Shown: positions 2,581-25,778 of the stretch, in pieces
Layout of the letters: every line of letters starts with the position of its first letter
Numbering within the stretch: the first letter of the stretch is position 1
Assembly (NCBI GenBank): GCA_902536655.1
Contig: CACAYF010000003.1
Coordinates: 1 to 64,000 of the forward strand
Reading direction: 5' to 3'
DNA from: an uncultured Alphaproteobacteria bacterium
Lineage (GTDB): Bacteria; Pseudomonadota; Alphaproteobacteria; Methylaequorales; Methylaequoraceae
Length of the DNA stretch: 64,000 bases
The notes under the pieces: generated by a model
Told to the model about the DNA's origin: nothing
Database searches by the model: none
Seen by the model: only the letters and a program-made list of their open reading frames with translations
Translations under genes and position numbers: made by a program

Positions 2581-2620
2581 TTTTTCAACCATTTTTCAAC
2601 AAAAAAATTAAGTAACAAAA

Positions 2621-2964
2621 ACTAGATGGTTTATAAGCCGGATTCTGTACCTTGAAAAGGTTGTGACTATTAATCTTGTATTAATGTTGCCATTAATATC
2701 TAGCGTCCTACCATACCCATACGCAAGGCCACGTTAGTCTTAAAGACAGGTTTTTTGGACTTGCTCCCAAAGGGGTTTACATTACCATTTTTGTTACCAA
2801 AAAAGTGGTGGGCTCTTACCCCACCATTTCAACCTTACCCAAAAATAGGCGGTATATTTTCTGTTGCACTTTCCCTGAGGTTACCCTCGCCGGACGTTAT
2901 CCGGCTTTGGTGCCCTGTTGAGTCCGGACTTTCCTCCTTAAAAGGCAGTCACACAACCATCTAG
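2621..2964 (-). ncRNA. rnpB: RNase P RNA (M1 RNA)
   Basis: Read on the minus strand, the 5' part has GAGGAAAGTCCGGACT and then AAAGTGCAACAGAAA with an ACCGCC element. The 3' part has GTACAGAATCCGGCTTAT. These are the universally conserved core blocks of bacterial type A RNase P RNA. The ends pair with each other (CTAGATGGTT near 2964 with AACCATCTAG near 2621), forming helix P1 and fixing the boundaries to within a few bases at about 344 nt. RNase P RNA is the catalytic subunit that trims tRNA 5' leaders and probably the tmRNA precursor of this genome. It is separated from mraZ by about 75 nt and reads in the same direction. Confidence 0.95.
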
Positions 2965-4329: not shown

Positions 4330-6005
4330 TGAAGAAAAAGCTATTAAAAACTTTCCTTTTTATTTCTGCTTGCACTATCTTGGTTTTAACAATTTTACCA
4401 ATTTTCTTAGATAAAAAAAAAATAATTGCAGCAATTAATAACAAAATTAAAAATGAATTAAATTTAAATGTAGATCTAGGTGAAGATTTAAAATTAAACC
4501 TCTTCCCTTTTCCAGAGTTGCAATTTAATAATTTGGTTTTTAAAGATGAATCAAAAGGACTTTATGTTAAAGTTATTAAGGTAGAGATAATTTCTACATG
4601 GCGGTCAATAATAAAGCTAGATCCATACATTCAAGAAGTAAGACTTAATAATCCACTGATACAGTTCAAAAATAAAAGTATTGCTAGTAATTTTAAAGTG
4701 TTGGTTGGAAATGAAGCAATTGACAAAAACCTAAACTTAAAAAAACTGTTTAATAGCTTCCATAGCTTAAAAGTTAAAAATGGAAATGTTGAATTTGAGC
4801 TATCTGGAAAAAAACATGTTTTTGAAAATATAGATTTAGGAATTAAAAGCACTAACTCCACTCAATTGAAAGCCAATATAGACTATAAAAATCTTAAATC
4901 TTTGATTAAGCTAGATGTAAGAACAGATAATTTTAAAGATTTTGATTATTCAGTGAATAAATTGTTCGATAACAAAAATGAAATTTTTGGGCTAGGAAAG
5001 ATTAAATTAGAAAAAAATAAATTAAATATTAGGGGCAATTTAAACAGTGAAAAATTAGATGTAGATAATATTTCAAAAATTTTAGCTTTTATAAACAAAC
5101 CCTTTCAAAGAAATAATATTTACCCAGTCAAAGTGATGTTACCTAAGATAGATATAAACATGAAATTAAATATTGATAAAATTATAGCAAAAGAAACTAT
5201 ATTTAAAAACATGTACTCAGAAATTTTAGTAAATGAAGACAACGTTTCTTTTCGGAATTCTAGAGCTAATTACTTAAATTCAACAATAAAAGCAAATGCA
5301 AAATATTCGAAAGTTAACAAAAAATTGAAAGGAAAAATTTCTATATTTGATTATTTAGTCGAAGATAAATTAATTGGGAATTCAGAGTTTTATCTCAAAG
5401 ACACATCATTTGATTGTGATTCAGAAATCATTGTTACGAACAAGAGAACAAAACAATTTCTAGACAAATTTCATGTAACCGGGGAATGTATTTCTGCAAA
5501 TGCAAATATTGTTGGTATCAATATAAATAAATTTTCTGATAAAGTAGACAATATAGAAACTTTTCAGGACTTTTTTAATTTGTTCAACAAAAATGAAATG
5601 AAGGGTAATACAGCACTTGATTCAATAAATTTTACTTTTAAAGTAAAGGAAAGCATATTTTTTTTAAATCAATTAGAAGCTATTCAAAAAAATATAAAGG
5701 TTTTAAGTAACGGTAAATACAACATCCACAATGATTCATTAGATTTGAAAAATAACATTTTTATAAAAACAAAAAAATTCAAAGACCTTCCAAATTTTCA
5801 GGTATTAGTAAATGGGAGTTCAAAAAACTATAAAGTTAGCTATAATTTTGATAAAATTAAATCTGCTATTTTAAATGATGGAATAAACACGATTTTAAAC
5901 AAACAAAAAAAGATTGTGATTAATCCCAAAGAACTTAAAAACCTTATTGATAAAAATTCAAAAGACCTCAGACCTGAAAAGATAATTGATTTTTTCCTCA
6001 ATTAA
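4329..6005 (+). CDS. AsmA-family inner-membrane protein
   Basis: 558-residue protein starting at a GTG that shares a base with the previous stop. It has one N-terminal transmembrane helix (about 7-28, FLFISACTILVLTILPIF). A long periplasmic region follows, beginning NNKIKNELNLNVDLGEDLKLNLFPFPELQF, typical of AsmA N-terminal domains, and a repetitive beta-rich body. AsmA proteins are now linked to phospholipid transfer to the outer membrane. It ends by overlapping the convergent fumC stop (4 nt). Family assignment rests on the N-terminal pattern and overall form. Confidence 0.75.
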   Translation: MKKKLLKTFLFISACTILVLTILPIFLDKKKIIAAINNKIKNELNLNVDLGEDLKLNLFPFPELQFNNLVFKDESKGLYVKVIKVEIISTWRSIIKLDPYIQEVRLNNPLIQFKNKSIASNFKVLVGNEAIDKNLNLKKLFNSFHSLKVKNGNVEFELSGKKHVFENIDLGIKSTNSTQLKANIDYKNLKSLIKLDVRTDNFKDFDYSVNKLFDNKNEIFGLGKIKLEKNKLNIRGNLNSEKLDVDNISKILAFINKPFQRNNIYPVKVMLPKIDINMKLNIDKIIAKETIFKNMYSEILVNEDNVSFRNSRANYLNSTIKANAKYSKVNKKLKGKISIFDYLVEDKLIGNSEFYLKDTSFDCDSEIIVTNKRTKQFLDKFHVTGECISANANIVGININKFSDKVDNIETFQDFFNLFNKNEMKGNTALDSINFTFKVKESIFFLNQLEAIQKNIKVLSNGKYNIHNDSLDLKNNIFIKTKKFKDLPNFQVLVNGSSKNYKVSYNFDKIKSAILNDGINTILNKQKKIVINPKELKNLIDKNSKDLRPEKIIDFFLN

Positions 6006-19329: not shown

Positions 19330-19761
19330 CTACAAGCAATTACCACATAAGCCTTTTATCTCTAAGTTCCATGCTTTAGGAATGAAGGCCTTTTGCTTTG
19401 TAGTTTGTTTGATATTTTCTGGTAAATCACAGAAGTGTGCTTCAATAACTTTCCCACATTCGTCACAAATCATAAATTGTGAACCTTTATGCAAATGATT
19501 TTCAAAACACGGAAAATAAGCGTTTTGACTTTCTACCCTATGAATAAAATTATGTGAGTGCCAGAAATCTATTGCTCTATAAATAGTTGGAGGTTTAGGT
19601 TTGTTGTCAAACACTTCGGAGAGTTTTTTTAAAATCTCGTAAGCTTTTATTGGTTTTTTGCTAGAAGAAATAATTTCTAAAACTCTTTTTCTCGGTTCGG
19701 TAAAGCGATGGTGATTTTCGTCACAGAATTTAATTGCTTTTTGTAATATTTTATTTTTCAT
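19330..19761 (-). CDS. zur: Fur-family zinc-responsive regulator Zur
   Basis: 143 residues: N-terminal winged helix (HHRFTEPRKRVLEII, YEILKKL, PPTIYRAIDFW) and C-terminal dimerisation/metal domain. The structural zinc cysteines are present as CDECGK and CGNC. The pattern PKPPTIYRAIDFW-HNFIHRVES and the FCDLP motif are Zur-like rather than Fur-like, and the neighbouring transporter with a His-rich loop agrees. Expected to repress zinc-acquisition genes when zinc is replete. Convergent with the ABC operon, about 15 nt between the stops. Confidence 0.85.
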   Translation of the reverse strand: MKNKILQKAIKFCDENHHRFTEPRKRVLEIISSSKKPIKAYEILKKLSEVFDNKPKPPTIYRAIDFWHSHNFIHRVESQNAYFPCFENHLHKGSQFMICDECGKVIEAHFCDLPENIKQTTKQKAFIPKAWNLEIKGLCGNCL

Positions 19762-19943: not shown

Positions 19944-20093
19944 CTATGAACAGCAGTTTTCTGATTCGATACAACAACCGTCTTTGCAACAACTGTTACT
20001 GCAATCTCCTGTATTACAACCTTCACTACAACAACCATCCGCACAACAGGTATACTTGCAACAAGTATCTTCAATATCTGTCTTATTAGTCAT
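19944..20093 (-). CDS. novel Cys-rich metallothionein-like protein, 49 residues
   Basis: ATG at 20093, TAG at 19944, with AGGAG 7 nt upstream. The product has 14 cysteines (29%), at residues 11, 12, 16, 17, 21, 22, 26, 31, 35, 36, 40, 41, 47 and 48. Six are CC pairs and most follow a five-residue period (CCxxx). It has no hydrophobic residues beyond three (I7, Y14, I42) and no signal peptide. This is the profile of a metal-thiolate cluster protein, unlike the GATA/SmtA-type bacterial metallothioneins I know. It reads in the same direction as zur, 180 nt upstream of it. Metal binding is inferred. Confidence 0.8.
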   Translation of the reverse strand: MTNKTDIEDTCCKYTCCADGCCSEGCNTGDCSNSCCKDGCCIESENCCS

Positions 20094-20254
20094 GACAATC
20101 TCCTCTATTTCAATTTCAGTCTACTAAAAATTTTTTAAGTATCAATTAGAAAGAAATTTTTCATAGGAGTTCAAATTTGACTTTGCAAATAATTGTTTTT
20201 CTTCACGACTTCAGCACTAACTACTTTTTTGTTACAATCAATTAAGCTAATTAT

Positions 20255-20536
20255 ATGGATTTATTAGGAATCACAGCACTATATATTTTTATATATGTAC
20301 CAATTTTATGGATATGTACTTATCCAGTTTATTGGTTGAATAAAAAAACTAAATCCAAAGTAAACCCATTTCTAATGAGTTTAGAACTTCAATTTCTTGG
20401 AAGTTCACTGTCTTCTTTAGTTCGTGTTTTACTTGGAGGAATTTATATCATTTTTTTTGGTTTACTCTATTGTATTGTATTTTTTTATACATTAATGGTA
20501 ACAGGGAATCTTATTTTTTCTTGGTTTGGTATTTGA
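20255..20536 (+). CDS. uncharacterised small membrane protein
   Basis: 93 residues with two strongly hydrophobic stretches (about 4-26 and 58-88) joined by a polar loop containing NKKTKSKVNPFLMSLELQF. No family recognised. It lies just left of the first ssrA-derived repeat and may be cargo of an older element, since it is followed directly by that repeat. Confidence 0.55.
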   Translation: MDLLGITALYIFIYVPILWICTYPVYWLNKKTKSKVNPFLMSLELQFLGSSLSSLVRVLLGGIYIIFFGLLYCIVFFYTLMVTGNLIFSWFGI

Positions 20537-20545
20537 GAAGAACAT

Positions 20546-20733
20546 AACCTCTGAAACCCTTTGTGAGTCTCCCTAAAACAAACAAGGGGGAACAATTGCC
20601 CCCCCCTTGCCGATGAGACTTCTGTGTCTCGGTGTTTGGTCTAAGACCCTTTATTTCTGGGGAGTTCTCAAAAAGTGTATTGAAAAGTGTATTGAAAATG
20701 AGGACATTTTCTGCACGACTTCTGCACGGACTA
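20546..20733 (+). repeat. ssrA-derived composite repeat, copy A (left-arm side intact)
   Basis: 20546-20626 matches the 3' part of the tmRNA gene (CCTCTGAAACCCTTTGTGAG to GATGAGACTTCTGT) and includes the hairpin CAAGGGGG/CCCCCTTG. After ACTTCTGT the sequence leaves ssrA and shares GTCTCGGTG and ACCCTTTATTTCTGGG with copies B-D. Two GTGTATTGA repeats follow at 20675 and 20687 (12-bp step, 50 bp from the core), then CTGCACGACTTCTGCACGGA. The three-repeat arm seen left of copies C and E is absent here. Confidence 0.85.
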
Positions 20734-20739
20734 ATTTTA

Positions 20740-21120
20740 TAATTTCTATTTTCTAAAGAAAAAAAGCACTGCAGACTAAATTACAATTATTACAAATAAT
20801 TTTTCAAAAAGGTCATTAGAATTAGTTCAGATAAATCTATAATCAGAGGTAATAATAGGTATAAACATAAAAAATTTACAAAGAGATATATTTATTACTA
20901 TATATATGGAATGGCGTCTAAAATTATTCCTTCCTTTCGCGACAGGTTTAGGCGCCTAACCCTTTTTAACTTCATAATTTTTAAATTACAAACGAAAAAA
21001 TGTCTGTTCTCATTATTAAGAATGACCATTATTATTTGAAATTATAACACACATAAAGAATATAAATTTCAATAAATATTTGAGATTTATTAGTATTATA
21101 TTTTAACCTTTTTTGGAGAT
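20740..21120. other. intergenic segment of cargo A-B with a GC-containing palindrome
   Basis: No gene seen in these 380 bases. A near-perfect dyad GGTTTAGGCGCCTAACC (about 20945-20961) stands out in AT-rich DNA. It can alternatively pair with GGCGTCTAAA about 30 bp upstream, so a small structured RNA or operator is possible. The rest is plain AT-rich spacer leading to the promoter of the peptide gene. Confidence 0.45.
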
Positions 21121-21124
21121 ATAC

Positions 21125-21283
21125 ATGAAAAATTTCTACTTTTTAATTTTATCTTTGGCATTTTTAATTTCTTCTGAATCCACAAGAGCGGACGGACACG
21201 GAGAAAAAAAAGAAGTTGTAGAAGAAAAAACTGAAGAGACTTCTGAAAAAAAAGAAGAAGATACATCTGAAGAAAAAAAATAA
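21125..21283 (+). CDS. 52-residue secreted acidic repeat peptide
   Basis: ATG at 21125 (TTTTGGAGATATAC upstream gives GGAG) to TAA at 21281. Signal peptide MKNFYFLILSLAFLISSEST, then a mature part ADGHGEKKEVVEEKTEETSE followed by two more KKEE-type units, about 60% Glu/Lys. It is the only gene of its cargo segment and has its own terminator. Function unknown; low-complexity charged periplasmic peptides of this type recur in marine alphaproteobacteria in my impression. Confidence 0.65.
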   Translation: MKNFYFLILSLAFLISSESTRADGHGEKKEVVEEKTEETSEKKEEDTSEEKK

Positions 21284-21297
21284 TCAAATAAATTATA

Positions 21298-21342
21298 ATT
21301 GGTTCAAGCAAAACAACCTAATTTTTTAATGCTTGAACCAAT
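21298..21342 (+). terminator. hairpin terminator after the acidic peptide gene
   Basis: ATTGGTTCAAGCA (21298-21310) pairs perfectly with TGCTTGAACCAAT (21330-21342), 13 bp with a 19-nt loop, then GTTTT. Placed 14 nt after the stop codon. Confidence 0.75.
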
Positions 21343-21377
21343 GTTTTAAGATTAAAATAAATCTTTAAGAAAATAAG

Positions 21378-21650
21378 AACAAACAAAAGTGCGTTGCAAG
21401 TGCGTCGCACTTAAATCGTTTTATTTTCCCTTATTTGTTGAAGAGTAAAACCTCTGAAACCCTTTGTGAGTCTCCCTAAAACAAACAAGGGGGAACAATT
21501 GCCTCCCCCTTGCTGATGAGACTTCTGTGTCTCGGTGTATGGTCTAAAACCCTTTATATCTGGGTGTCTCAAAAAACTGTGTCGCAAATCACTGTTTTTC
21601 ATGCACGACTTCTGCACGGACTACTTCTCACCATAGTAATCTGGGAACAG
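21378..21650 (+). repeat. ssrA-derived composite repeat, copy B (both sides present)
   Basis: Left part: GAACAAACAAAAGTG, then two 10-mers GTGCGTTGCA (21389) and GTGCGTCGCA (21400), 11-bp step; the third expected repeat is degenerate. Core 21448-21528 matches the ssrA 3' region, with hairpin CAAGGGGG/CCCCCTTG. After ACTTCTGT comes the same GTCTCGGTG block, one recognisable GTGTCGCAA at 21579 (51 bp from the core; its partner is degenerate), and TGCACGACTTCTGCACGGAC. It further shares CATAGT-x-x-TCTGGGAACA with copy C. Confidence 0.85.
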
Positions 21651-21700
21651 TTTGAATAGATAATCAAAAAATTAGTCACTTACTGATTTGGGTGTGGTAG

Positions 21701-22138
21701 TCAAAGATTATTTTTATTTTCCTCTAAATAAATCCTATTACCCCTTAGTGCAAAGAATAGTCCTCCACAATAAAGCATTACATGAAAATTATCATATAAT
21801 AATACGTCCAAAAAACTCTCTGGTTCTTGCATCAAAATAATACCAGTCATAATACCGCATATAACAATACCGCAGAATCTTGTTATTAATCCTCCATAAC
21901 TATTAAGTTTTTTTGTGATCAATAATCCACCAATTAGCAATCCAATACCCGAAAGGAGTTCACCCCAAGCAACAAAGAACCAGACAGTCATCGGTAAACC
22001 ATAAGATTCCGCATCAGAGATATTGAGGGGCAATTTTGATTCTCCTTGTAAAATAAATACAATAGCGAGAGGGACCCTAATAAGAAAATTTGCACCTTTG
22101 AAGTCTGGAATCTTTTTTAAAACACTTTTTAATAACAT
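21701..22138 (-). CDS. DoxX-family membrane protein
   Basis: 145 residues, four transmembrane helices, with FLIRVPLAIVFILQGESKLP, GLPMTVWFFVAWGELLSGIGLLIGG and VLLYDNFHVMLYCGGLFF, the DoxX pattern. DoxX-like proteins are quinone-linked or integral envelope proteins of poorly defined role. It is the single cargo gene between repeats B and C and is the only cargo gene read on the minus strand. Confidence 0.8.
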   Translation of the reverse strand: MLLKSVLKKIPDFKGANFLIRVPLAIVFILQGESKLPLNISDAESYGLPMTVWFFVAWGELLSGIGLLIGGLLITKKLNSYGGLITRFCGIVICGIMTGIILMQEPESFLDVLLYDNFHVMLYCGGLFFALRGNRIYLEENKNNL

Positions 22139-22339
22139 TTGTTACTTAAATACTTGGTTTGTTATCAATATTTTACCAGTATTAAGTTGCTATATAAAAA
22201 CTAATATTGAGTCTATCACTCTAGTTTTAGACTACCTTTAAATCAAAAAATTACATTTAGTAAAACCAACGCTTAAAGGATATTATTTTTTGCAACTGTT
22301 TAGACTATCTAAAATTTCATTACAATTAAAACAAAAAAA

Positions 22340-22636
22340 GAACAAACAAAAGTGTATTGAAAGTGTATTGAAAGTGTATTGAACTTATTGCACTATTGTT
22401 TCCCTTATTTGTTGAAGAGTGAATCCTCTGAAACCCTTTGTGAGTCTCCCTAAACAAACAAGGGGTGACAATCGCCACCCCAAGTCCGATGAGACTTCTG
22501 TGTCTCGGTGTATGGTCTAAAACCTTTTATTTCTGGGACTTTTTTGAAAAGTGTATCACAAAGTGTATCACAGTTATTGATTTTTTCTGCACGACTTCTG
22601 CACGAACTATTTTTTATCATAGTGGTCTGGGAACAT
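22340..22636 (+). repeat. ssrA-derived composite repeat, copy C (both sides intact)
   Basis: Left arm: three GTGTATTGA repeats at 22352, 22363 and 22374 (11-bp step), ending 42 bp before TCCTCT of the core. Core to 22501 matches the ssrA 3' part; its hairpin is GGGGTG/CACCCC, a compensated variant, but the lower CAA/TTG pairs are lost (CAAG replaces CTTG). Right arm: two GTGTATCACA repeats at 22551 and 22563 (12-bp step, 50 bp from the core), then CTGCACGACTTCTGCACG. Left and right arms carry different 9-10-mers. Confidence 0.88.
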
Positions 22637-22694
22637 TTTTTTGTGGTCATTTGCCATTTGTTTTTGATTTCTTACATTTTTGTAATAGTTTTTA

Positions 22695-22904
22695 TCATAT
22701 CTGGTGAGATATTACCTTTATCTTCAAAAAATTCATTGAAACAACACTTTCAAGTCTCTGATTAAGTAAATAGTATCTAAGAACATACATATGCCTCTCT
22801 AATCCATCTTTGTCTATAAACAACTCGTATTTAAATTCAAGATTGCGAATAGTATTAGTCTTCTTTTTCTTGCATAACAATTTAAAAAAGGAGATTATTA
22901 GCAT
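22695..22904 (-). CDS. possible small basic protein divergent from the formyltransferase
   Basis: 69 residues with a hydrophobic start (MLIISFFKLLC), a KKKK stretch and FKYELFIDKDGLERHMYVLRYYLLNQRLESVV, which reads as plausible protein. Its ATG is adjacent to that of the formyltransferase (22905), so the starts are back to back, which is awkward for two promoters. No family recognised; may be a chance frame. Confidence 0.35.
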   Translation of the reverse strand: MLIISFFKLLCKKKKTNTIRNLEFKYELFIDKDGLERHMYVLRYYLLNQRLESVVSMNFLKIKVISHQI

Positions 22905-23849
22905 ATGAGAATTTGGGTAAATGAAGAAATGAAATATCTTAAAAGATCTTTAGAAACTAAATTACAAGAAGAAAAATTACCAACTAAGAAAGAAGAATTA
23001 AACTCTCGAAACAATTTAGATAAAATTAGAATTACTTTATTTACGAATACCCTGAGAGGAATATCTTGCTTAAAATATTTAAAAATAAAAAAGGTACAAA
23101 TTAAAAATTTAATAATTACTAAAAAAAATTTAAATCCGAAAGTTATAGATTTTTTAAATAAAAATAAGATTAAATTCACAACTATAAAAAACTTAAAATC
23201 CCAAAAAATACTCAGAATATTAGATAAAACAGATTTAGGTTTAGTTTGCGGGTTTCCTCATATTTTCAAGGAATTTCAATTTAATAAACCTAAATATGGT
23301 CTTATTAATTTACATGCTGGCAAACTTCCAAAGTATAGAGGTGGAAGTCCACTAAATTGGCAAATAATTAATAATGAAAAATATTTTGGTTTATCTGTTA
23401 TAAAAATAAATAAAGGTATTGACACTGGGGATATAATTTTTGAAAAAAAATTTAAACTTTTAAGTAAGTATAAAATTGAAGACTTACAAAGAATTGCTAA
23501 CAATTCTTTCCCTAAGTTACTTTATAACTCGATATTAAAATTAATTTCAGGAACGAAACTTAAAAAACAAAATGAAAAAAAAGCAAAATACTTTCATCAA
23601 AGAGGACCTGAAGATAGTTTAATACATCCACCTGACACCTCATTAAAAGAACTAACTTTATTATTAAGAGCAATGTCGAGTTCATACCCAAGTCCATATA
23701 TTGTGTATAATAATAAAAAAATAATTATAAAAAAAATAAAAGTTATAAAATTAAAGTTAGATTTTAAAGATAAAAATGTTCTAACAAGTTCAAATAAAAT
23801 ATTTTTAAAATTGAAAGATGAACAAATTCAGATAATTGAAAAAAGATAA
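22905..23849 (+). CDS. formyltransferase-family enzyme, probably sugar N-formyltransferase
   Basis: 314 residues. The catalytic domain shows GLINLHAGKLPKYRGGSPLNW (Asn and His of the active site, then the YRG segment) and INKGIDTGDIIFEKKF (catalytic Asp), the N10-formyltetrahydrofolate-dependent formyltransferase signature. A C-terminal region (RGPEDSLIHPPDTSLKELTLLLRAMSS) matches the Fmt/ArnA C-terminal segment. The first ~45 lysine-rich residues lack homology, so the true start may be later. The housekeeping Fmt is expected elsewhere; location in an accessory segment suggests modification of an amino sugar in surface polysaccharide. Confidence 0.8.
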   Translation: MRIWVNEEMKYLKRSLETKLQEEKLPTKKEELNSRNNLDKIRITLFTNTLRGISCLKYLKIKKVQIKNLIITKKNLNPKVIDFLNKNKIKFTTIKNLKSQKILRILDKTDLGLVCGFPHIFKEFQFNKPKYGLINLHAGKLPKYRGGSPLNWQIINNEKYFGLSVIKINKGIDTGDIIFEKKFKLLSKYKIEDLQRIANNSFPKLLYNSILKLISGTKLKKQNEKKAKYFHQRGPEDSLIHPPDTSLKELTLLLRAMSSSYPSPYIVYNNKKIIIKKIKVIKLKLDFKDKNVLTSSNKIFLKLKDEQIQIIEKR

Positions 23850-23936
23850 TTTTTTCATTTTTTTTCTCCTTTTCTTTTTTTATTAAAGTTTAGTTTTGGA
23901 TTAGAGATTATGAATCCAGTTTTGAAGATAGGGTCA

Positions 23937-24122
23937 TCCTCTGAAACCCTTTGTGAGTCTTCCTAAAACAAACAAGGGGGAACAATTGCCCCCCTTGCCG
24001 ATGAGACTTCTGTGTCTCGGTAAAAGTCTTAAGACCCTTTGTTTCTGGGTATTCTTAAAAAAGTGTGTGCAAAAGTGTGTGCAGATTAGGTCTATTTTAT
24101 GCACGACTTCTGCACGGACTAC
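23937..24122 (+). repeat. ssrA-derived composite repeat, copy D (left-arm side intact)
   Basis: Core from TCCTCTGAAACCC (23937) to ACTTCTGT (about 24013) matches ssrA, with hairpin CAAGGGGG/CCCCCTTG. Then GTCTCGGT and ACCCTTTGTTTCTGGG, two GTGTGTGCA repeats at 24063 and 24075 (12-bp step), and GCACGACTTCTGCACGGAC. No repeats precede the core. The 9-mer equals that flanking copy E, so D and E bound one matched element. Confidence 0.87.
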
Positions 24123-24210
24123 TTTTTTCTATATTAGATTATAAAAATAGTTATACTTTGTAATTGTAACTATTAAGACAGATAGATTTTTAACTTCGAG
24201 AGATTAAAAT

Positions 24211-25263
24211 ATGAATAAATTTATATTTCTAATTTGGATAATTATTATAACTTTAAATTGTTCGTCTACTCTTAGCATAGAAAAAAGTAATTTAATTTGC
24301 TCTGAAAAAGATAGAGAATACGCTGAGTTTTGGGATAATTATTATGACCCTGCGGAAGCATATGAATTTGGGGAAAAAATAAAAAAATTAGTAAGAGATG
24401 AAAACCTTTCAGGTCTATTTGATTTAGTTGAAGGTGAATTAACTTCTGGACCAAGGAAAGAATTCGTCAAGGGGAAGAATTTCTCAGATTTTTTTTCAGA
24501 TGATTGGCGAAATAATTTACTTGAGAGTAAATCACCTTGTTCTCCAGTCGGATGGCGTGGGTTTATGCTTGATAGTGGGTCAATATGGTTTAATAAAGAT
24601 AAAGATAAAAATAAGTGGTTTATCTTTTCAATGTTAGGAGCAAAAAAAGAAAATATTACGGAAAAAACTCCAGTCGGTTGGAAGTTTGAGGGTAAAGTAA
24701 TTCCTCCACAATGTTTTTCGACGTTGTGGATGTCTGGTGACAATTATGAAGAATATGCAAATAAGTTTAACATAAAAAATTATAAAGATTTTTCAAAAAA
24801 TCCTGGCGAATATTTCGGTAGTAAAATATCTGACTTTAAACCAATCAATGCCTCCTGGGGTGGAGAAATTTATCTTATTTCATCTATGAAGAAATGTTTT
24901 AATGGTGAATTGAGATACGGAGGCATAAAAAATATTGGATTTCCAAAAATAAAAATTAATAACAATACAATAGAAACTCAATTATGTTCTTCTGATGATG
25001 TATGCACAAAATTTTCATACACTATCTTATTAGATATAAACCCAGATGAGTGTCAAAATCTTGTACCAAATATTAAAGGAAAATGTTTAAAGTCTTATTT
25101 GATATCAATTGGTGATTACAGTGGAGGTTCTATGGGATGGGATATGAGTTACAATATATATGGATTATTTAATTTAAAAAATAGTGAGAAATTTATTTTG
25201 CCAATAAAAAACTTTTCTAATAAAAACGATGCCTTAAACTTTACGGATAAGTTAATTAAATAA
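24211..25263 (+). CDS. uncharacterised secreted protein, cargo of element D-E
   Basis: 350 residues with an N-terminal signal segment (FIFLIWIIIITLNCSSTLS); the cysteine in TLNC lacks the small residue before it expected for a lipobox. Eight further cysteines sit in NLICSEKD, KSPCSPVGWRG, PPQCFST, MKKCFNG, TQLCSSDDVC, PDECQNL and GKCLKS, compatible with disulfides. It also has tryptophan-rich segments and YSGGSMGWDMSYNIYGLF. No family recognised. Sole gene between D and E, so presumably the payload of that element. Confidence 0.7.
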   Translation: MNKFIFLIWIIIITLNCSSTLSIEKSNLICSEKDREYAEFWDNYYDPAEAYEFGEKIKKLVRDENLSGLFDLVEGELTSGPRKEFVKGKNFSDFFSDDWRNNLLESKSPCSPVGWRGFMLDSGSIWFNKDKDKNKWFIFSMLGAKKENITEKTPVGWKFEGKVIPPQCFSTLWMSGDNYEEYANKFNIKNYKDFSKNPGEYFGSKISDFKPINASWGGEIYLISSMKKCFNGELRYGGIKNIGFPKIKINNNTIETQLCSSDDVCTKFSYTILLDINPDECQNLVPNIKGKCLKSYLISIGDYSGGSMGWDMSYNIYGLFNLKNSEKFILPIKNFSNKNDALNFTDKLIK

Positions 25264-25286
25264 CCTTTGTACTGCAAAAGGAAAGA

Positions 25287-25448
25287 GAACAAACAAAAGT
25301 GTGTGCAAAGTGTGTGCAGAGTGTGTGCAACTTATTGTACTATTGTTTCCCTTATTTTCTGTTGAGTGAATCCTCTAAAACCCTTTATGAGTTTCACTAA
25401 AACAAACAAGGGCGAACAATTGCCCGCCCTTGCCGATGAGACTTCTGT
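25287..25448 (+). repeat. ssrA-derived composite repeat, copy E: the current 3' end of ssrA plus three arm repeats
   Basis: GAACAAACAAAAGTG, then three GTGTGTGCA repeats at 25299, 25310 and 25321 (11-bp step). A 42-bp spacer (CTTATTGTACTATTGTTTCC...) leads to the core TCCTCTAAAACCCTTTATGAG through ACTTCTGT (25441-25448). Beyond ACTTCTGT the sequence is the body of ssrA instead of the GTCTCGGTG block, so identity with A-D stops there. It is the genuine gene end, with hairpin CAAGGGCG/CGCCCTTG. Confidence 0.88.
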
Positions 25449-25690
25449 TGCCCGGTGTTCATAACCGCGCTTACTTAAATTAATTAAGCAGCGAGTGCCA
25501 TTTCATTATCATTGGCATTTATAATTTTAGTCCGATAACGTTGGTACCATTCCGGGCAAAGTTTTTGACTATTCACACGCACGTCGATCCTATTTCACCC
25601 CCTTTGATATTTTTTGGTGGAGGTGCCGGGTACCGCCCCCGGGTCCGCATCGGCTCAAAATCAAACGTTTATTGCCATAGCTGAAATTCA
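25375..25690 (-). ncRNA. ssrA: two-piece, circularly permuted tmRNA
   Basis: On the minus strand the acceptor piece comes first and ends GGTACCCGGCACCTCCACCA (CCA at 25617-25615). A 12-nt linker and the coding piece starting GGGGGTGAAATAGGATCGAC at 25602 follow. GGGGGTG pairs with CACCTCC, giving G3-U70, the AlaRS identity pair. The tag ORF (25516-25484) encodes ANDNEMALAA then TAA, inside helix TTGCCCGG (25559-25552)/CCGGGCAA (25455-25448). A pseudoknot-region hairpin CAAGGGCG/CGCCCTTG follows. The permutation is typical of Alphaproteobacteria. The ends (about 25690 and 25375) are approximate. tmRNA rescues stalled ribosomes; SspB is at 7386. Confidence 0.93.
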
Positions 25691-25778
25691 GCATCTCTAT
25701 AATAAGGAATGATAAAAAAAATTAAACCTATAAATTGTTTTAGTATAAGAATAAGTTATTATGAAAAATTAAAATTCT

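Follow-up and report, generated by a model that had tools for sequence, protein, structure and literature searches.

Integrase-deleted, att-bounded cassettes probably accreted in tandem at a permuted ssrA gene in a marine alphaproteobacterial family

Streamlined ocean bacteria are thought to have scant room for mobile DNA. Among the closest systems described are the tandem islands that Dehalococcoides carries downstream of ssrA, the gene for transfer-messenger RNA (tmRNA), which are bounded by direct repeats of the ssrA 3' end; for 15 ssrA islands, about half, which have no integration module, mobilization in cis was suggested (PMC3146451). Cis-mobilizable elements (CIMEs) are bounded by attachment (att) sites, lack integration and transfer genes and accrete at one gene end, which is a known process (PMC5704250). 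In Methylopumilus, the genomic island fGI-2 repeats the last 20 bp of tRNA-Lys (PMC10872708). Here we describe an array of small cassettes at ssrA in a 64,000-nucleotide stretch of DNA (the window; GCA_902536655.1, contig CACAYF010000003.1, positions 1 to 64,000) from an uncultured alphaproteobacterium of the Methylaequoraceae. The window lies on contig 3 of a 32-contig, 1.42-Mb genome (G000). We consider it probable that the array is a tandem stack, built by accretion, of att-bounded cassettes that derive from an ssrA-specific integrative element by loss of the integrase and are moved in trans. The original prediction, made from the sequence of the window, held that no described family has this size and target, which was too strong in view of tandem ssrA islands (PMC3146451) and CIME accretion (PMC5704250). 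In the open-access literature, we found no paper on the ssrA arrays of this lineage.

The ssrA gene of the window was also called by ARAGORN, as a permuted tmRNA at 25393-25707 with the tag ANDNEMALAA. Downstream of it are four small cassettes bounded by five copies of a core of ~87 bp, in which the terminator hairpin of ssrA follows the final bases of the tmRNA coding piece. Profile E-values of the individual window cores range from 1e-21 to 1e-28.

25434..25730, minus strand: ssrA, permuted two-piece tmRNA gene with attB in its 3' end (RF01849, 205 bits, E=5e-58; RF04321, the permuted model, E=2e-29)
25371..25457, plus strand: core E, ssrA-proximal junction, tmRNA 3' end and terminator hairpin (profile search, E=1e-26)
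23937..24021, plus strand: core D (profile search)
22424..22510, plus strand: core C (profile search)
21451..21537, plus strand: core B (profile search)
20548..20634, plus strand: core A, distal junction (profile search)

The five direct copies that had been predicted are present, with cores starting at 20548, 21451, 22424, 23937 and 25371; the units exist as claimed, and the starts first given for B, C and E are those of left arms of the same units. Core E belongs to ssrA proper, as predicted and as RF01849, RF04321 and ARAGORN agree. In cores A-D the tmRNA sequence ends and a different, common right-hand block, also anticipated, runs to the motif TGCACGACTTCTGCACGGACTA. Short tandem repeats, the arms, lie on both sides of the cores.

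25299..25328, plus strand: left arm of element D-E, three 11-bp repeats GTGTGTGCA
24063..24082, plus strand: right arm of element D-E, two 12-bp repeats GTGTGTGC, sequence the same as in the D-E left arm
22352..22381, plus strand: left arm at core C, three repeats GTGTATTG
22551..22570, plus strand: right arm at core C, two repeats GTGTATCA
21389..21411, plus strand: left arm at core B, GTGCGTTGCAAGTGCGTCGCAC
21577..21596, plus strand: right arm at core B, CTGTGTCGC, second copy degenerate
20675..20694, plus strand: right arm at core A, two repeats GTGTATTG
24100..24121, plus strand: conserved right-end motif TGCACGACTTCTGCACGGACTA, with more copies at 20712, 21602 and 22588
20196..20229, plus strand: right-end motif from an older element, decayed, upstream of a 93-aa gene (repeat family D5)
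23860..23945, plus strand: scar of a deletion, with a 'type I' block joined to core D at ATCCTCT in place of a left arm

Arms match in the ssrA-proximal element D-E, not in A-B or B-C, and C-D has lost its left end by deletion at the ATCCTCT microhomology. The left side of D is a scar and not a normal left arm, and the decayed right end at 20196-20229 makes the array longer than first described.

The arrays were compared across the 32 genomes of this marine alphaproteobacterial family, and an order-level search returned the same 32. An ssrA query matched in 28 of them, most of which have extra tandem cores. In 31 oriented regions, the profile search found 72 cores, of which 22 are at ssrA and the other 50 are extra; the spacing ranges over 260-4274 bp (median 1469). 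The extra cores share a single orientation, and all but one lie at ssrA or on contigs broken before ssrA; several arrays are split across contig ends, as expected from repeats. The lone core off ssrA (L087:10588-10673, G004 contig 7) is decayed, accompanied by a block of tiny open reading frames (ORFs) described below, and ~6 kb from tRNA-Thr(TGT). Throughout the 32 genomes the right-end motif TGCACGACTTCTGCACGGACTA is confined to ssrA arrays in one orientation, the reversed control giving 0 matches, and exact copies of the left-arm motif are likewise confined. A class-wide search of 385 genomes gave significant long matches from this family alone, with a 28-bp match (E=9e-4) in one other genome. 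Many of the matching genomes are separate single-cell genomes (AG-892-F10, AG-337-K15, AG-891-J16 and others), so that mis-binning is an unlikely source of the arrays. Given these independent genomes, the core E-values and the confinement of the end motif, the window array is not a chance pattern. Cores are more decayed the farther they lie from the gene (rho=-0.52, p=0.001, n=36), as would be expected were ssrA the entry point of new elements.

Each core reads as a tyrosine-integrase att site with an attP-like plan. In most extra copies the core is CCGATGAGAC-TTCTGT-GTCTCGGTG, in many ssrA copies it is CCGATGAGAC-TTCTGT-TGCCCGGTG, and a third right-hand type begins TCTCCTGC. All three right-hand sequences (GTCTCGG, TGCCCGG and TCTCCTGC) begin directly after TTCTGT, and in most copies the inverted half-sites CCGATGAGAC and GTCTCGG flank TTCTGT, where sequences switch. 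Up to three direct repeats at 11-bp spacing form the left arm and two at 12-bp spacing the right. The repeats vary by element (GTGTATTG, GTGTGTGC, GTGTCTGC, GTGGGTCG, GTGCGTTG, GTGTATCA, GTGCATTG and others) and those at one end of an element match those at the other, with exact agreement in 14 of 35 pairs vs 3.3 expected (p=5e-6) and in 2 of 24 in a control that paired the two sides of one core. An exact match was found in 7 of the 12 readable ssrA-proximal elements. At one locus (L071:15473-15540, a minus-oriented copy on G014 contig 13), left and right arm repeats GTGCGTTG are fused and the core is gone, as if deleted by inter-arm recombination. Other integrase genes of these genomes also adjoin tandem 11-13 bp repeats, several at tRNA genes; at L119, L120, L121, L122, L127 and L135, tyrosine integrases located near tRNA-Ser or tRNA-Thr have tandem arm repeats of their own (e.g. 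TTAGGGGTAATGA, CTCTGTGTTAC, TGGAGCCCCAG).

Pairs of relatives locate the switch. An acidic-peptide cassette abuts ssrA in G023, and in G020 a DoxX cassette lies in between; the two are identical over 120/120 bp up to TTCTGT and share no common run beyond it. This pair of a filled and an unfilled site switches exactly at the TTCTGT edge. In the mirror pair G019/G022, the right sides are identical and the left exact run is just 10 bp. From these two comparisons, exchange is confined to about ten bases, AGACTTCTGT. A variable core hexamer, TCTCCC, was considered as the crossover and ruled out, because it goes with the left side. Within the genus, ssrA itself has more than one type of terminator stem, so each insertion would also swap the terminator of the gene.

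All four predicted cargo types were found in the window, with PF07681 and PF00551 matches.

21125..21283, plus strand: cargo A-B, acidic secreted peptide, 52 aa, recurring in relatives
21701..22138, minus strand: cargo B-C, DoxX (PF07681), ratio of nonsynonymous to synonymous substitution rates (dN/dS) about 0.05
22905..23849, plus strand: cargo C-D, formyltransferase (PF00551, E=5e-13; fmt-like, below cut-off)
24211..25263, plus strand: cargo D-E, secreted protein, 350 aa, without family; 93.6% nucleotide identity in another genus
20255..20536, plus strand: membrane protein of 93 aa, an old cargo that is fixed in most relatives (clusters in 16 loci)

Cargo sets are unlike between close relatives. 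The same cargo in the same order in all relatives would have pointed to fixed duplication; instead, relatives hold other cargo in other order between the same repeats, including MvaI/BcnI, SacI and Tsp45I type II systems, a BglII-like nuclease and C5 methylases. The tested cargo genes are under purifying selection (dN/dS 0.04-0.21). Cassettes are also far more alike across genera than their surroundings. The 350-aa cassette of G000 shows the 93.6% identity with another genus vs 69.4% for the ssrA-thyX region; further cassette vs thyX-region nucleotide identities are 94.3 vs 72.9, 92.6 vs 72.2 and 91.0 vs 71.2, and a PhoD gene is 99.6% identical (synonymous divergence, dS, 0.012) between genera whose thyX is 69.8% identical. 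Near-identical integrase-less cassettes in different genera, together with exact arms in ssrA-proximal elements, argue for recent movement as short units. To judge by these identities, the cassettes transfer genes, those of restriction enzymes among them, from genus to genus much in the manner of integron cassettes. Beside a Fur-family gene (19330-19761), the window also encodes a cysteine-rich, metallothionein-like 49-aa peptide, MTNKTDIEDTCCKYTCCADGCCSEGCNTGDCSNSCCKDGCCIESENCCS (19944-20093, minus strand), which gave no match in Pfam or NCBIfam. The peptide may itself be old cargo, since a fragment of it adjoins an integrase remnant in the G017 array.

An integrase gene, which the original prediction had suggested seeking in relatives next to the same arm repeats, was found at ssrA in G002. 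On contig 7 of that genome an element of at least 8.6 kb lies left of ssrA and its three GTGTATTG repeats, and its distal gene is a tyrosine integrase (L079, 2-1114, minus strand, cut by the contig end; phrog_1 integrase, E=7e-24). The protein contains the motifs RSGLVRPGKEVL and YSLRHSGINQRLE and a weak Phage_int_M match, and the 3' end of its gene points toward the expected right-arm position. Since the contig end cuts the gene, attP of the element is unreadable. A PF00589 search gave no match in or near any array and missed this integrase because it is divergent and truncated; it was reached via the serine recombinase search, as both genes share one contig. No transfer genes are recognisable in the element. 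Ahead of its genes and near the left arm (L079:1147, 2427, 5195 and 8514) there is a repeat, GTGTTCCCC..GT, which is possibly a shared operator. Resident P4-type and tRNA-linked integrases were rejected as the enzyme: those examined have other or no recognised arms and no ssrA core nearby. A tblastn search with the G002 integrase found no match to them.

No window cassette has an intact recombinase, and remnants alone are present.

22607..22904, minus strand: 3' remnant of the ssrA integrase gene, frameshifted, with the end ...DHKKMFPDHYDKK* (E=2e-9 against the L079 integrase, 54% identity over 48 aa; end motif)
21621..21671, minus strand: end of an integrase gene next to the core B right arm, last codons FFDYLFKLFPDYYGEK* (motif scan)

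Decayed integrase 3' ends adjoin cassette right arms in the window genome (cores B and C), G015, G020, G029 and G030. There is a short, less certain remnant in G001 and a further one inside the G017 array (67.5% identity over 40 aa); several of the short ends are recognised by their final 10-20 codons alone. Because these ends lie at right arms, the cassettes are most likely deletion derivatives of integrase-bearing ssrA elements. The elements were rightly described as having no recombinase now, but an integrase-free origin does not agree with the remnants in the window and relatives or with the integrase gene in G002.

These observations are best read as site-specific elements without active recombinase stacked at ssrA, with varied cargo and a switch at TTCTGT, much as originally proposed. 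The parent would be an ssrA-specific integrative element with a tyrosine integrase next to its right arm. Its deletion derivatives, the cassettes, would each consist of a core half with the right arm, then one to a few cargo genes, then the left arm with a core half. Integrase supplied in trans would integrate them at CCGATGAGAC-TTCTGT, in the 3' end of the tmRNA coding piece. With each insertion, the 3' end, terminator and downstream arm of ssrA would be replaced by those of the element and the earlier ones pushed outward, which would result in tandem accretion in one orientation. We infer that a G002-type integrase performs the recombination and moves integrase-less cassettes in trans, with DNA passing between cells; supply in trans would be the simplest account of integrase-less cassettes common to several genera. 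A more far-reaching suggestion, which we offer tentatively, is that the element-specific arm repeats are addresses for diversifying trans-acting tyrosine integrases, and that the lineage has a double-stranded counterpart of the integron which captures one- or two-gene cassettes at ssrA.

Several points weigh against accretion in trans. The ssrA integrase was seen in 1 of 32 genomes, where it is cut by the contig end. Searches of Pfam, NCBIfam and PDB sequences with this integrase, and its single-sequence structure, were weak or empty, PHROGs alone being strong; the predicted structure had a mean confidence (pLDDT) of 38 and was not used. Neither a circular form nor a pristine empty site turned up in the family genomes, the reads of which were not searched. 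Over half of the elements with two readable arms lack an exact match, so that arms would have been exchanged or have decayed, and the arm comparison relies in part on units identified by eye and includes related, hence non-independent, elements.

An unlikely, though the strongest, alternative is that the array is a fossil stack of classical CIMEs that lost their integrase after insertion and are no longer mobile alone or in trans. The integrase remnants, some of them frameshifted, would suit such a stack, as would the decay of cores with distance from ssrA and the arm mismatches in over half of the readable elements. It sits poorly with near-identical integrase-less cassettes in different genera, with exact arms in 7/12 readable ssrA-proximal elements and with purifying selection on cargo. 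We regard as improbable the proposal that repeated terminators and right-end blocks spread cassettes by homologous recombination, through unequal crossing-over or DNA uptake, the recombinase being long inactive. Breakpoints of the informative pairs fall at TTCTGT and are not spread over the 87-bp core, arms match within elements, and cassettes of unlike cargo have little in common beyond their ends. Cores and blocks at 90% identity would nevertheless favour homologous exchange, some common segments span two cores (G015/G013, 2317 bp), G014 has its arm fusion without a core, and the left side of window core D is a microhomology deletion.

Slightly more doubtful still are phage satellites packaged by a helper phage. 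The integrase matches a phage family, phrog_1, and part of the cargo is of defence type; however, the core, arms, integrase and a 44-aa ORF have no phage, IMG/VR or plasmid match, and cassettes of 1-2 kb are below the size of known satellites. A viral origin was rejected, since IMG/VR and phage records yielded chance matches only, whether scanned for patterns or searched with proteins: L093 resembles an RNA-phage polymerase contig, L168 is a tailed-phage contig with unrelated repeats, and L169-L181 are coincidental 16-mers. Between tail genes of L168, a marine contig, three tandem AAAAGTGCGTTG repeats (4685-4720) have a form like that of the arms, which is probably coincidence. Movement by a host Xer recombinase, integron style, is very improbable: Xer-size recombinases occur in nearly all family genomes, but the core is unlike a dif site, Xer proteins are not known to have an arm-binding domain, and the ssrA site has a dedicated integrase and its remnants.

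A second block, adjoining the right arm, is common to 11 genomes in one copy each (L078, L077, L076, L064 and seven other loci). It codes on the minus strand for tiny proteins of 54, 38 and 44 aa, not all three in each copy, and occurs in elements that differ in arms and cargo. The 44-aa ORF has a dN/dS of 0.11. Database searches with the tiny ORFs gave no clear relative; one possibility is that the block encodes a putative directionality factor. Elsewhere, the window contains an RNase P RNA class A gene (2618-2964, minus strand).

One locus in streamlined ocean bacteria holds a changing set of small cassettes, among them several type II restriction-modification systems, exchanged between genera. 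If the cassettes move in trans, this would be integron-like gene exchange built from an ordinary phage-type att site, and the arrays suit the study of how arm-site specificity evolves, since many arm types occur on one core.

Compared with the Dehalococcoides islands, which have the serine integrase DsiB and 20-bp repeats in the tmRNA T-loop, the arrays have a tyrosine-type att site with arms in a permuted tmRNA coding piece, and their cassettes are mostly 1-2 kb (PMC3146451). A DsiB-type enzyme was not found: PF00239 matched in 2 of 32 genomes, and the one match at ssrA (G002) is a 233-aa invertase-type protein. In the window attL and attR are kept and integration and transfer genes are absent, as in CIMEs. 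CIMEs are described as decay products beside integrative and conjugative or mobilizable elements (ICEs/IMEs), whereas here the short integrase-less form is the rule in the lineage and is spread between genera (PMC5704250). Tycheposons and additive islands are similar in that islands grow at an RNA gene in streamlined marine or freshwater bacteria, but tycheposons are larger, at 4-200 kb, their descriptions include a recombinase gene, their target differs and no arm architecture is reported for them (PMC10872708); the present cassettes lack a tyrosine recombinase and target a tmRNA, not a tRNA. The arrays resemble integron arrays and clusters of attC sites lacking integron-integrases (CALINs) in their one- or two-gene cassettes, varied and partly defence cargo and lack of a recombinase in the array; they differ in having no attC hairpins, attI or IntI, with a double-stranded attP-like core, arms and a tmRNA anchor in their place (PMC11389934). 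Their cores, made of the tmRNA 3' end, terminator and arm repeats, fall outside the integron and CALIN definitions. The arrays are best read as CIME-like ssrA islands that are integron-like in behaviour.

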